Shown in pieces: positions 43,613 through 48,174 of a stretch of 51,775 bases of DNA; the stretch's first letter is position 1, and the number at the start of each line of letters is the position of its first letter. Below the pieces are notes generated by a model. It saw only the letters and a program-made list of their open reading frames with translations, had not been told where the DNA came from and searched no databases. This DNA comes from Methanoculleus chikugoensis (GTDB taxonomy: Archaea; Halobacteriota; Methanomicrobia; Methanomicrobiales; Methanoculleaceae): assembly GCF_900095385.1 (NCBI RefSeq), contig NZ_FMID01000042.1, forward strand, positions 1 through 51,775, read 5' to 3'. Made by a program: the position numbers and the translations under genes.

Positions 43613-43709
43613 TCTCCGGCAGCTCACCGGCCCGCCGGTCCGTATATCCCGAAAGAAAACGCAAACTCCAAATCCCGGGCAAGAAGACAGATGTTCAGGG
43701 TAGTTGATC

Positions 43710-45368
43710 GTGCAACCAGAGAGTTTGCGCACAGCGAGAGCCGGATTGATCGTGCTGCTCCTGCTCTTCTCCGTAATGCCGCCGGTATCCGCCGGCCTCT
43801 ACACCGATTCGTGCGGGATGGTATGGACGGACGCCGCTATCCCGTTCGAGCGGAACAACGAGACGGCCTACAACGAGGAACTGATGGCGTCTTACACGCC
43901 GATCATGGCGAACCTGACCGACAGCCCACCCGACTTCAGCAGCATGACCTGGAGCGACGCCTTCCGCGAGACGTGCGCCTATATGGAAGAGCGCTACGCC
44001 TTCACGGAGTGGCGCGGCGTCGACTGGGACGCGCTGTACGCGACCTACGCACCGAAGATCGCACAAGCCGAGGAGAACCGGGACAGCGCCGCCTACTACC
44101 GGACGCTCCGCGAGTTCGTCTTCGCCATCCCCGACGGGCACGTCCTGGTCCTCGCTCCCGACGACTTCGGGGCGAAGCATGCCGATATCGGCGGGGGCTA
44201 CGGGCTCGCCGTCGCACGGCTCGATTCGGGCGAAGTGATCGTGGCCCACGTCGCAAACGGGAGCGATGCGGAGCGGGCGGGGATCCGGTTCGGCGACGAG
44301 GTGGTCTCCTGGAACGGCCGGCCGGTCGGGGAGGCGATCGACGCGACGTCGATCATCTGGACCCCGGTCAAGCCCTCGACCGCCGAAGGTATCCTCCTCC
44401 AGAAACTGCGGTTCCTGACCCGGGCGCCGGTGGGGGCCGGGGCGACCGTCGGCATCGCCGGCCCGGCGGGATCAGCCCCCCGCACAATCAACCTGACCGC
44501 AGCGGACGACGGCTACGAGACCCTCGCCCGGACGAGCATCTTCCTCGGCCGCGAGGTGAACGACGGAGCGGCCGGATCGTCGGCGGAACTCAAGGCGATG
44601 ATTACGAACGAGACCGTGACCACCCGGACCCTCCCCGGAGGGACCGTCTACATCGCGGTCTACGAAGAGTCCTATGACGTCTACCAGCCCTTCAAGGCGG
44701 CGGTGGAGGATGCGATCGCGGACGGGGCGCCCGGCATCGTCGTCGACCTCCGGTTCAACCGGGGCGGGGACGACAACCTGGCCGCCGCCTACGGTGGGTG
44801 GTTCGTGGACCGGCCGGTCTTCTACGAGTACGGCACCACCTACGACCCCGGGACAGGAAAACCCGCGGTCCTCTGGGAGTCCTGGACACAGCCCCGGCCC
44901 GACCGCTACGATGGCCCGGTCGCCCTCCTCGTCAGCCCCTACACCATCAGTTCGGGCGAGGGACTCCCGAAGGTCTTTGCGGAGTCCGGGACGGGCGCGA
45001 TCGTCTCGTGGTACGGGACAAACGGGGCGTTCGGGATGGAGTCGATGGGGCCGGTCCTCCCCCTCGGGGTCATGACGGCCTTCCCGCAGGGCGCGTCGCT
45101 CGACGAGGACGGGAAGATCCAGGTCGACAGCAACGCATCGTTGGTCGGCGGTGTCGCCCCGACGGTGCGGGTGCCGCTTGAACGGGATACCCTGGCGCGG
45201 GCGATGGCCGGGGAGGACGTCCAGTTTGCGTATGCGGTCGAGTGGATCGAGGCGCAGGCGGAGAGCACGACCGCGGAGCCTTCGGCGGTGCCGACACAGG
45301 CGGCGGCCGGGTGGGTGGTCGTGCTTGCGGCGCTTGCGGTTGTCGCTGTCTGGTATGGGCGGCGGTGA
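43710..45368 (+). CDS. Secreted, membrane-anchored S41-family peptidase with PDZ domain
   Basis: About 552 residues from GTG 43710 (AGGG nine bases upstream; TTG 43704 is closer to it). A signal peptide (AGLIVLLLLFSVMPPVSAG) exports it. An N-terminal helical region, IPDGHVLVLAP, a PDZ-like domain near 170-250 (VANGSDAERAGIRFGDEVVSW), then the S41 core with the nucleophile region SPYTISSGEGLPKVF follow. The tail (AAAGWVVVLAALAVVAVWYGRR, shown by position near 530-552) is one helix plus Arg residues, so the enzyme stays fixed to the outer face of the membrane. It degrades or processes extracytoplasmic proteins. Confidence 0.88.
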   Translation: MQPESLRTARAGLIVLLLLFSVMPPVSAGLYTDSCGMVWTDAAIPFERNNETAYNEELMASYTPIMANLTDSPPDFSSMTWSDAFRETCAYMEERYAFTEWRGVDWDALYATYAPKIAQAEENRDSAAYYRTLREFVFAIPDGHVLVLAPDDFGAKHADIGGGYGLAVARLDSGEVIVAHVANGSDAERAGIRFGDEVVSWNGRPVGEAIDATSIIWTPVKPSTAEGILLQKLRFLTRAPVGAGATVGIAGPAGSAPRTINLTAADDGYETLARTSIFLGREVNDGAAGSSAELKAMITNETVTTRTLPGGTVYIAVYEESYDVYQPFKAAVEDAIADGAPGIVVDLRFNRGGDDNLAAAYGGWFVDRPVFYEYGTTYDPGTGKPAVLWESWTQPRPDRYDGPVALLVSPYTISSGEGLPKVFAESGTGAIVSWYGTNGAFGMESMGPVLPLGVMTAFPQGASLDEDGKIQVDSNASLVGGVAPTVRVPLERDTLARAMAGEDVQFAYAVEWIEAQAESTTAEPSAVPTQAAAGWVVVLAALAVVAVWYGRR

Positions 45369-45402
45369 GGGGTTAGGAGAGATCCTCACGCGAAGTGCAA
45401 CT

Positions 45403-45483
45403 GTCCGCAGGACGCGACGGTTCGCTAGAACCGGAGCGTGAGCACCGAAGGTGCAAGACAGGAGCTTGAGAAGCCGTAGGCTT
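45403..45483. repeat. Four serial mini-hairpins
   Basis: GTCC-gca-GGAC (45403-45413), GGTTC-gcta-GAACC (45419-45432), GCACC-gaa-GGTGC (45442-45454) and AAGCC-gta-GGCTT (45471-45483) are each perfect stems with 3-4 base loops. The linkers repeat as GGAGCxTGA. The whole lies in a gene-free stretch between convergent genes (45369-45756). Confidence 0.65.
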
Positions 45484-45590
45484 TGAGCCCCGAAGTGCGC
45501 GAAGTTCGGTAGATACACGTACAACCATCCTTCGCGGCTTCGCGTCTTTCGCGTGAGGCTGTATCGTTATCTTCTCCCGTTAGCTCGCGA

Positions 45591-45649
45591 GAAGCCGCGA
45601 AAGGGCGCGAAGATCGGTTTACCCGGGAGGAACGCCCTTTCGCGGCTTC
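45591..45649. repeat. 17-bp inverted repeat with TTCGCGGCTTCGCGT direct copies
   Basis: GAAGCCGCGAAAGGGCG (45591-45607) and its exact reverse complement (45633-45649) are separated by 25 bases. TTCGCGGCTTCGCGT occurs directly twice (about 45532-45546 and 45639-45653), each followed by a GCGTGAG. An intergenic palindromic repeat element; similar TTCGCG/GCGTGAG intergenic repeats are known in other prokaryotes from memory. Confidence 0.75.
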
Positions 45650-45756
45650 GCGTGAACTTTTGCGTGAGATTACCCCAGGCCGAAGAGACGAGGATTTTTC
45701 CGGACGGGGACGGAAAGTTGTAAAAAAGAGTTCTCCGGGGGGCCCCGGATAACCGC

Positions 45757-48174
45757 TCACTGGTATTCCGGGGGCTGGATCTCTTTCGGCAGCCCGCCCT
45801 TGAAGTGCTGCTGCACCTTCCCGTAGTACTGCCGCAGCCGCTCGTTCATCGTCGCGTGCACCTTCTCCCGTGCATTCTCAAAGTGCGACGGCTTCACGAC
45901 GGCGGCACCCTCCCGCATGGCGAGCATGGCCGCCTCCCGCGCGAGCGCCTCGAGGTCCGAGCCGACGAACCCCTCGGTCTCGGCTGCAACCTTCTTGATG
46001 AGCTGATCTCTCGCCGGATCGTCCAGGGTCATCTTCTGCTGCGTGAAGAGGTCGACGAGTTTCTTCCGCCGGACGTGGCTCACGAGCCCCTCGTCTTCGT
46101 TCGACGCAATCGCGGCGCGGTGCTCCTTCACGTCTTCGACGCTCACCTGACGGTTCGCTCCCACGGCGAGAACCAGGTCTTCAAGATCGTTCTCCGTGAG
46201 CCCCTCCGTCATCGCCACGAGGTCTTCCATCGTCGAGCCCTCGAGCGGCATGTAACTGGTGTGGATCGCGAGGATCTTCTGCCGGTCTTCCCGCCCGGGC
46301 TCGCCGATGTAGACGAGCCGGTCGAACCGCCCGGGCCGGAGCAGCGCCGGGTCGACCATGTCCGGCCGATTGGTCGCGCCCATCACCACCACACCCCGGA
46401 GTTCCTCGAGGCCGTCGATCTCGGTGAGAATCTGGTTTAGCACGCTCTCGGTGACGTGCGACTCGGTGCCGCCGCCCCGGGCCGGGGCAAGGGCGTCGAG
46501 TTCGTCGAAGAAGATGATGGACGGCGCCACCTGCCGGGCCTTCTTGAAGACCTCCCGAACAGCCCGCTCGCTCTCGCCGACCCACTTCGAGAGGAGCTGG
46601 GGGCCCTTGACCGGGACGAAGTTCGCCCCGCTCTCGCTCGCGACCGCCTTTGCAATCAGGGTCTTTCCCGTCCCCGGCGGGCCGTAGAGGAGAACGCCCT
46701 TCGGCGGTTCGATGCCGAGGTTCTCGAACTGCTCCCGCCGGGTGAGCGGATACTCCACCGCCTCGCGGATATCCTGCTTCGCCTCTTCGAGGCCCCCCAC
46801 ATCCTCCCAGGCAGTGTGGGGCACCTCGAGGAGGATCTCCCGCATGGCGCTCGGGCCCACATCGCGGAGAGCGTCACGGAAGTCCCTGGCCTGCACCTCC
46901 ATCTTCTCGAGGATCTCCGGCGGGATCTCGTCGGCTTCGAGATCGATCTCGGGGAGGTAGCGCCGCAGCGCCTTGATCGCCGCCTCGCGGGCGAGTGCGG
47001 CGAGATCCGCCCCAACGAATCCGTGGGTCTGCTGGGCGACGTCGGCGATCGCCACGTCGTCCGCGAGCGGCATACCGCGGGTGTGGATCTGGAGAACCTG
47101 GATCCGGTCGTCCTCCGAGGGCACCCCGATCTCGATCTCCCGGTCGAACCGCCCGGGACGGCGGAGAGCCGGGTCGATGGCGTCGAGCCGGTTCGTGGCC
47201 CCGATCACCACGACCTGGCCCCGTTCCTCGAGCCCGTCCATCATCGTCAGGAGCTGGGCGACCACCCGCCGCTCGACCTCCCCGGTCACCTCTTCACGCC
47301 GGGGGGCGATCGAGTCGAGCTCGTCGATGAAGATGATCGCAGGAGCGTGCTGCCGTGCATCCTCAAAGACCTCCCGGAGCCGCTGTTCGCTCTCGCCGTA
47401 GTACTTCGAGATCACCTCCGGCCCCGCGATCGAGATGAAGTGTGCTCCGCTCTCGCTCGCGACCGCCTTTGCGATCAGGGTCTTCCCGGTCCCCGGCGGG
47501 CCGTAGAGGAGAACGCCCTTCGGCGGCTCGATACCGAGCTTTCTGAAGATCTCCGGGTGGCGCATGGGCAGTTCGATCGTCTCCCGGACCCGCTGCAACT
47601 CGCCCTTCAGGCCACCGATATCCTCATAGCTGATCCTTTTGACGCCCTCGAATCCGGCCGCAGGCTTCTCGGAGAACTCGATCTTCGTGTTCTTGGTGAT
47701 GATCACGGCGTTCTCCGGCTCGACCACCACGGCCTTGAACGCGACGAGCTGGGGCTGCATGAACGGGAGCCCGGCCTGGATGGGGACGGAGTCGTTCTTC
47801 ACAACCGGAAAGTCGATCAGCTTGTTGACGACGCTGCCGTAGTTGATGGGGAGCTGTTTCGGGAGGTCTTCGGGCGGCGCAAGCACGACCCGTTTCGCCT
47901 CGGCCTCCTCGTCGAGCGTTCGTATCTTGACCCGGTCGCCGATGCTCGCACCGGTATTGAGCCGGGTAAAATTATCGATCCTGACTTTGCCCTGGTGCCA
48001 GTCGTTCACCATGGCGCGCCAGACCTTCGCTACGGTGCGACGCTTCCCTTCGATAGCAACGAGGTCTCCCGGGTTGAGCCTGAGCTGCAACATGGTATCA
48101 GGGTCAAGCCGTGCCTTGCCTGCCCCCTGATCCTCCGGATAAGCGCTATCTACCTTCAAGTATATCTCGGGCAT
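45757..48174 (-). CDS. CDC48/VCP-type AAA+ ATPase (VAT)
   Basis: 805 residues. N domain (double-psi barrel, LKVDSAYPEDQGAGKARLD, to about 185) followed by two AAA rings: D1 Walker A GPPGTGKT near 223 with IIFIDELDSIAPRREE, D2 Walker A near 503 with IIFFDELDALAPARGG. It unfolds proteins for the proteasome and other pathways. The C-terminus ends PPEYQ, close to the HbYX-like tail used to dock onto proteasomes. The gene is convergent to the peptidase across the repeat-rich stretch and divergent from larC. Confidence 0.96.
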   Translation of the reverse strand: MPEIYLKVDSAYPEDQGAGKARLDPDTMLQLRLNPGDLVAIEGKRRTVAKVWRAMVNDWHQGKVRIDNFTRLNTGASIGDRVKIRTLDEEAEAKRVVLAPPEDLPKQLPINYGSVVNKLIDFPVVKNDSVPIQAGLPFMQPQLVAFKAVVVEPENAVIITKNTKIEFSEKPAAGFEGVKRISYEDIGGLKGELQRVRETIELPMRHPEIFRKLGIEPPKGVLLYGPPGTGKTLIAKAVASESGAHFISIAGPEVISKYYGESEQRLREVFEDARQHAPAIIFIDELDSIAPRREEVTGEVERRVVAQLLTMMDGLEERGQVVVIGATNRLDAIDPALRRPGRFDREIEIGVPSEDDRIQVLQIHTRGMPLADDVAIADVAQQTHGFVGADLAALAREAAIKALRRYLPEIDLEADEIPPEILEKMEVQARDFRDALRDVGPSAMREILLEVPHTAWEDVGGLEEAKQDIREAVEYPLTRREQFENLGIEPPKGVLLYGPPGTGKTLIAKAVASESGANFVPVKGPQLLSKWVGESERAVREVFKKARQVAPSIIFFDELDALAPARGGGTESHVTESVLNQILTEIDGLEELRGVVVMGATNRPDMVDPALLRPGRFDRLVYIGEPGREDRQKILAIHTSYMPLEGSTMEDLVAMTEGLTENDLEDLVLAVGANRQVSVEDVKEHRAAIASNEDEGLVSHVRRKKLVDLFTQQKMTLDDPARDQLIKKVAAETEGFVGSDLEALAREAAMLAMREGAAVVKPSHFENAREKVHATMNERLRQYYGKVQQHFKGGLPKEIQPPEYQ

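Follow-up and report, generated by a model that had tools for sequence, protein, structure and literature searches.

A family of nested double-hairpin repeats between convergent genes of the archaeon Methanoculleus chikugoensis

The intergenic stretch studied here lies, as had been predicted, between two convergent genes, for an S41 peptidase (43704-45368, plus strand) and a CDC48-type AAA ATPase (45757-48174, minus strand), and it carries two dispersed, non-coding repeat families that we call A and B. What had been described as four serial hairpins are two A units, the younger of which sits within hairpin 1 of the older. We consider it likely that A is a non-autonomous mobile double-hairpin element and that it inserted first into B and later into a copy of itself. 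The window, i.e. the whole stretch of DNA analysed (51,775 nt), is contig C51 of a 2.65-Mb, 70-contig genome that is 99.7% complete.

Layout of the intergenic stretch and nesting of A units

The four perfect hairpins of the original prediction, with their differing stems and loops of 3-4 bases, were all recovered on the plus strand by direct reading and by a repeat search: GTCC/GGAC with loop GCA (45403-45406 / 45410-45413), GGTTC/GAACC with loop GCTA (45419-45423 / 45428-45432), GCACC/GGTGC with loop GAA (45442-45446 / 45450-45454), and AAGCC/GGCTT with loop GTA (45471-45475 / 45479-45483). They do not, however, represent four serial units but two A units, one nested in the other. The older, interrupted unit (45396..45488, plus strand) starts with TGC-AA-C and the left arm of its hairpin 1, TGTCC (45402-45406), followed by the loop GCA. 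Its right arm GGAC (45410-45413) is completed by the A at 45460, after which come the strand GGAGCTTGAG (45461-45470) and hairpin 2, AAGCC-GTA-GGCTT (45471-45483). The inner unit (45412..45458, plus strand) is complete, reads CGC-GA-C[GGTTC-GCTA-GAACC]G-GA-GCG, TGA, [GCACC-GAA-GGTGC], and scored 50.8 bits with R1 and 53.2 bits with R2. The trinucleotide GAC stands on both sides of it (45411-45413 / 45457-45459), and deleting 45414-45459 yields TGTCC-GCA-GGACA followed by GGAGCTTGAG, so that the outer hairpin 1 is rebuilt. Exactly that uninterrupted hairpin 1, CTGTCCGCAGGACAGGAGCTT, is found in the orthologous locus of G004 (L164), where the inner unit is missing from the same site, and R2 also detected the remnant of the outer unit at 45462-45488.

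The A units in turn lie within a family-B palindrome. Family B is a palindromic TTCGCG inverted repeat, CTCACGCGAAG...CTTCGCGTGAG, with ends that read CTCACG...CGTGAG, and is often paired with a conserved spacer. The outer end of the first palindrome, CTCACGCGAAG, occupies 45385..45395 and is shared by the orthologues L164, L165, and L170, while its remainder (CCCGAAGTGCGCGAAG ... CCTTCGCGGCTTCGCGTCTTTCGCGTGAG), known also from dispersed copies, occupies 45489..45557. A spacer (GCTGTATCGTTATC...GTTAG; 45558..45583), the like of which recurs at other copies, leads to the second palindrome (45584..45668), supported by repeat search and by orthologues; all these segments are given on the plus strand. 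The second palindrome holds the perfect 17-bp inverted repeat that had been noted before, GAAGCCGCGAAAGGGCG / CGCCCTTTCGCGGCTTC (45591-45607 / 45633-45649), which the repeat search placed within a 26-nt pair of 88% complementarity, and the accompanying TTCGCGGCTTCGCGT copies lie at 45531-45545 and 45639-45653. In G002 and G027 (L170, L172) the corresponding site has just a simple form of this second palindrome. Further downstream, 45720-45753 contains a GC-rich inverted repeat (GTTCTCCGGGG/CCCCGGATAAC) and an A-run, which on the minus strand is a hairpin followed by CTCTTTTTT just beyond the ATPase gene. Because this feature is similar in most orthologues compared, we read it as probably the terminator of the ATPase gene, lying outside the repeat families.

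Nesting of the kind seen in the window recurs among A units. Among 112 units that lacked a local hairpin 1, a matching outer arm was present past the insert (45-84 nt upstream, at most one mismatch) in 38, against a shuffled mean of 11.8 and maximum of 21. Removing the inner unit plus 2-4 nt restored the outer hairpin 1 in 28 of 35 adjacent pairs, a figure that has no shuffle of its own, whereas the other nesting and direct-repeat tests carry controls. When the flanks of each unit were joined, a hairpin of at least 5 bp was restored in 38 of 165 units (17.4 after shuffling, maximum 25); 24 of these hairpins were hairpin 1, with the insert in the loop zone in 12, in the right arm in 12, and in the left arm in 0, and none of those restored was clearly hairpin 2. 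Direct repeats of 4 nt flanked 32 of 166 units (shuffled 8.0, maximum 16). Since such repeats occur in two registers, we describe the flanking duplication as 2-4 nt rather than as fixed; a fixed 3-nt target duplication, tempting from the nested cases, was not universal, and the unit's own 3' GA blurs the length. Some of the nested copies counted here are not independent events.

Fold and covariation of family A

A family-A unit is a double hairpin of ~45 nt. Hairpin 1 consists of a lower 3-bp stem, a conserved tandem GA.GA mismatch, a 6-bp upper stem, and a GNA/GNNA loop, and hairpin 2 has a 5-7 bp stem with the same type of loop. GNA loops and tandem GA are unusually stable single-strand motifs, and in A both features are confined to one strand. 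The 118 distinct units with two perfect hairpins use 28 different stem words in hairpin 1 and 16 in hairpin 2. As these units had been picked for perfect hairpins, the pairing test was redone on units chosen by context only (CGAY, 13 nt, linker). In the context-chosen units (n=159) the pairing was 0.83, compared with a shuffled mean of 0.53 and maximum of 0.57; perfect stems occurred in 31 of 85 distinct sequences with 13 inner nt (shuffled mean 2.5, maximum 8) and in 16 of 34 with 14 (shuffled mean 3.0, maximum 8). The loops of stems with at most one mismatch were GNA or GNNA in 67 of 87 cases and of the TNC type in 3. The idea that selection acts on structure is supported, with strong compensatory change also where the stem letters had not been selected on.

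A repeated GGAGCxTGA element had been described as the linker of the successive hairpins. The repeated element is indeed there, with plus-strand copies GGAGCGTGAG (45433-45442) and GGAGCTTGAG (45461-45470), but for the most part it is no mere linker. Folding of the inner unit as DNA suggested that hairpin 1 extends below the GA/GA internal loop into this element, the inner copy of which covaries with the 5' triplet of its unit. A pairing test of the lower stem agreed: over 182 units the outermost pair (x1-linker6) was Watson-Crick in 124 (shuffled 60.4, maximum 84) and the next pair (x2-linker5) in 165 (shuffled 113.7, maximum 129). The combinations were TGC/GCA in 51 units, AAC/GTT in 31, CGC/GCG in 26, and AGC/GCT in 9, and the commonest imperfect one was TGC/GCT (28). 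The folding prediction and the pairing test therefore show that the linker begins as the 3' strand of hairpin 1, G-GA-Gxx, and ends in a short connector; in GGAGCGTGAG of the inner unit, G-GA-GCG is this strand and GAG leads to hairpin 2. A similar extension of hairpin 2, by pairing linker 7 to the base three positions past its end, found no support at 75 of 161 units (shuffled mean 65.7, maximum 79).

For the whole structure, alignment A3 gave a covariation score of 0.610, against 0.198 when shuffled and at most 0.110 when slid. The 35 units of alignments A2 and A3 were hand-picked perfect hairpins, which biases their pairing percentages, and the fair covariation tests are those on context-chosen units and on the lower stem. 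Alignment A1 comprised 58 of 68 candidate units and was set aside, as units with tetraloops had been wrongly placed in it by MAFFT.

Distribution, placement and orthologous sites

When 45340-45780 was compared by BLASTN with its own genome, it matched 46 places, which fell on two kinds of module. A pattern search with CGGAGCNTGAGCACCGNAGGTGCGA (up to 3 mismatches) gave 35 family-A matches in this genome and 0 for the control, and covariance model R1 found at least 142 A units there and had hits in 39 of the 40 family genomes. Copies are thus abundant, and of the two explanations first offered for the hairpins, an RNA or a dispersed repeat family, the second is favoured. Most Methanoculleus genomes hold 60-184 units and one genome of another genus (G038) holds 109, whereas a minority of Methanoculleus is poor in A (0 in G019, 1 in G013, 2 in G020 and G021); in A-rich genomes these model counts are lower bounds, with 150 candidates scored. 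Across the order, 25 of 110 genomes matched A at E <= 1e-9, only three of them outside the family, with 1-2 copies each. In all 80 stretches listed out of 107 that carried the repeat, the relatives bear the names of Methanoculleus, Methanomicrobiales or Euryarchaeota MAGs. Loci in the three genomes of other families and in G036 keep the A architecture with other stems. Such isolated A-like units lie in otherwise A-poor genomes of other families (G077, G072, and G071; loci L206, L207, L208, and L211; example stem GCGAC-GAA-GTCGC), and these units are distant relatives or transfers. The repeat pattern was not found in viral_contigs, leaving carriage by viruses unsupported.

Family B is a REP/BIME-like palindrome, and it is placed like REP/BIME elements. 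In its own genome CCTTCGCGNCTTCGCGT (up to 2 mismatches) gave 65 + 46 matches, compared with 3 + 0 for the reversed pattern, and a longer B pattern was present in 25 of 35 genomes of the genus, with a control of zero in all. Contig C1 of G001 showed 111 matches to the B pattern, several of them in clusters with spacings of ~106-110 or 165-182 bp, a lineage-specific expansion of B alongside fewer A units (33). The copy numbers of A and B are correlated over all 35 genomes (rho 0.61), so that the families are not wholly independent; in the 24 best genomes rho was 0.39 (p = 0.057), no more than 2 B matches occur in 11 of the 24 that are rich in A, and A is partly independent of B.

Placement was scored with a rough gene caller of our own making. 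In the own genome, 34 clusters could be classified, 21 in convergent, 13 in tandem, and 0 in divergent contexts, none overlapping a called ORF, and 6 more lay at locus edges. For the 137 A clusters of this genome and its named relatives the numbers were 43 convergent, 35 tandem, and 9 divergent, the remainder overlapping a called ORF (10) or lying at edges (40). Against background gene pairs of 95/246/110 (convergent/tandem/divergent), this is a convergent preference of A with p = 1e-7.

The S41 peptidase gene was found in 17 of 35 genomes of the genus, and 15 loci could be compared. Five have a short, repeat-free intergenic stretch of 42-105 bp (G017, G018, G030, G001, G010), in three only B or what is left of it is present (G002, G016, G027), in G004 the left arm of B contains an A unit, in G005 the right arm of B contains an A unit of opposite orientation, and the window locus has two B palindromes with the nested A units. 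In G029 an A array adjoins a G-run repeat, and in G003, G028, and G013 other sequence is present and the ATPase gene is not reached within the retrieved sequence. Since L163 (G003) and L167 (G028) hold unrelated, apparently protein-coding sequence at the same intergenic site, this convergent junction is a general spot for insertions. Two further loci, with convergent ends by reading, carry B or B plus A in some species and neither in others. Between orthologous pairs there were several unit-sized indels of 42-48 nt among the 30 of 37 events listed; the relatives' reference loci had been fetched with the A motif and are therefore enriched in A. By reading, duplications accompany the indels L158/L105 (GAG) and L156/L144 (GGG), and no clear direct repeat accompanies L136/L127, L089/L142, L115/L116, and L137/L146. 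In L116/L113 a 30-nt change amounts to a swap of hairpin 2 between two linkers, which makes some change in A arrays recombination and not insertion.

Tandem A arrays with spacings of 45-47 nt were seen in L068 (33-144) and in contig C1 of G003 (1112827-1113280). At L173, L105/L158, and L044/L133, A arrays adjoin or lie within the G-run/C-run repeat known from PMC8044849, and there A insertion may disrupt the quadruplex-forming part.

Proposed mobility, rival explanations and known systems

We propose that the identity of A would lie in its folded strand and not in its letters. A putative trans-acting enzyme would recognise the folded single strand and would join a copy to a hairpin 1, in its loop or its 3' arm, or to other repeats at G-rich sites, with a duplication of 2-4 nt as the trace. 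Linkers would then recombine homologously, which would swap hairpins and build tandem arrays, with spacings mostly of 45-47. Probably the copies themselves are neutral and are tolerated as passengers where the 3' ends of genes converge. Counting against mobility, the flanking direct repeat is without fixed length and is absent or unclear at several insertions, and a PF01797 search of the 35 genus genomes found no mobilising enzyme for A. It is also conceivable, and we offer this only tentatively, that A stands for a new class of miniature mobile DNA, with a copying signal in the folded strand, the same fold as preferred target, and a structure-specific archaeal enzyme other than Y1. The signal would then be the tandem GA.GA and the GNA loop, with stem letters free to vary, arrays would grow through hairpin 1 like Russian dolls, and the enzyme would perhaps be a nuclease-ligase for hairpins, or else a repair complex that works on hairpins once they are extruded.

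An explanation without mobility, in which stems stay perfect through template-switch correction of palindromes and the units are spread and shuffled by unequal recombination, would account for the tandem arrays with their regular spacing, for the hairpin-2 swap in L116/L113, and for stem words that by reading form one-step networks. We nevertheless think it unlikely. Simple correction would erase the GA.GA, yet the first GA step is kept in 158 of 161 units and the second in 161 of 161 (the second by construction, as part of the search expression, the first not wholly so), and the pairs around it covary, which argues for recognition of the folded strand. Nesting in hairpin 1 with its arms intact and unit-sized insertions at dispersed orthologous sites also run counter to it. 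A mobile element fits better than recombination alone because of the dispersal of A, the empty and filled sites, its spread without B, and the arm-intact nesting.

It is improbable that the hairpins are a structured RNA (a terminator, a 3'-end stabiliser, or a small RNA) under selection at convergent gene ends, although the folds are strong (RNA folding z = -2.40 against shuffles for 45369-45530 and z = -4.42 for 45520-45756), the stems covary, convergent sites are preferred, and the GA and GNA features are strand-specific. In tandem contexts 33 units were in sense and 36 in antisense orientation, mismatches in imperfect stems were G.T (23) about as often as A.C (20), and units are present or absent at orthologous sites. 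Rfam, at the gathering score, matched only the tRNA at 755-837 in the window and nothing at the repeats. The RNA alternative of the original prediction is therefore disfavoured.

Movement as REP/BIME elements, with a RAYT or some other transposase of the Y1 (HUH) type as the mobiliser, would agree with the size, copy number, and intergenic placement of the repeats and with paired palindromes and spacers, but to us it seems distinctly improbable. PF01797 occurred in only 7 of 35 genus genomes and in 0 copies in the own genome (G000), and was lacking in G001 despite its 111 B matches. Since 22 of the 24 A-rich genomes lack Y1 transposases, a RAYT/IS200 route is unlikely for A. To our knowledge the short duplications flanking A are not expected of IS200/IS605-type insertion. 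An IS608-like lagging-strand route would predict a replication-strand bias, and none (two arcs) was seen in G003 over 150 of 158 A matches. G033, where A and B are nearly absent, has 19 matches to the Y1 transposase family, many of them broken. Chance or base composition, for which a high G+C that favours short hairpins could speak, deserves practically no credence with motif controls near zero and all shuffles exceeded.

With A as a likely mobile element, we would be dealing with mobile-like DNA of ~45 nt, conserved in shape and not in sequence, in a culturable archaeal genus that matters in biogas. Its nesting rule and tandem-GA signature offer a direct handle on a candidate transposition or repair activity, and the covariation model traces copies through genomes where plain sequence searches miss them. 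The analysis also shows how arrays of serial hairpins between convergent genes arise, and annotating such arrays as small RNAs would be unwise without transcript data.

In the open-licence literature we found neither the double hairpin nor its covariation or nesting described; the nearest known kinds are mitochondrial double-hairpin elements, REP/BIME, and the family's own G-quadruplex repeats. REP, BIME, and REPIN elements, as treated in the accessible part of PMC3733652 (see also PMC3116915), resemble our repeats, B most of all, in copy number, intergenic sites, palindromes, and spacer composites. They differ in that we found no Y1 transposase in the own genome and in that A has two hairpins of variable sequence and nests within itself, and on reading no GTAG foot was noticed in our repeats; CGTC REPs are likewise without a dedicated transposase, according to the portion of PMC3733652 available. 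Potential G-quadruplex sequences repeated in Methanomicrobiaceae, about half of them between convergent genes and orientation-neutral (PMC8044849, seen in part), occur in the same organisms, and A units often lie inside or beside them, but that repeat is a G-run/C-run element, and the part of the paper available to us does not mention the A hairpins. By reading, four G-runs with a C-run are absent from 45369-45668. The satellite Fam_48_45_4 of Methanoculleus marisnigri, which the accessible part of PMC6749651 lists as a tandem family with a 45-nt period, may be tandem runs of A, given the shared genus and period; the arrays in L068 and G003 are candidate members of the satellite families known from M. 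marisnigri. Unlike MITEs, A has ends (nGCGAY / GGTGC) that are not inverted repeats and a variable duplication of 2-4 nt, while B does have inverted ends.

Yeast mitochondrial DNA contains GC clusters, which are short, G+C-rich hairpins with an assumed DNA-level transposition and for which we know of no sequence or host relation to A. These clusters are mentioned in the accessible part of PMC2800124, which describes double-hairpin elements (DHE) and repetitive hairpin-forming elements (RHE) from the mitochondria of fungi and sponges. Those elements are short and mobile, consist of one or two hairpins, occupy intergenic sites, form tandem arrays, and vary in presence from one close species to the next. 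An A unit is likewise made of two adjacent hairpins and differs in presence at orthologous sites, but it resides in archaeal chromosomes and not in a mitochondrial genome, it has short flanking duplications, reported in that part of the paper to be lacking for Allomyces, and it combines covarying stems around a tandem GA with insertion into its own hairpin 1.
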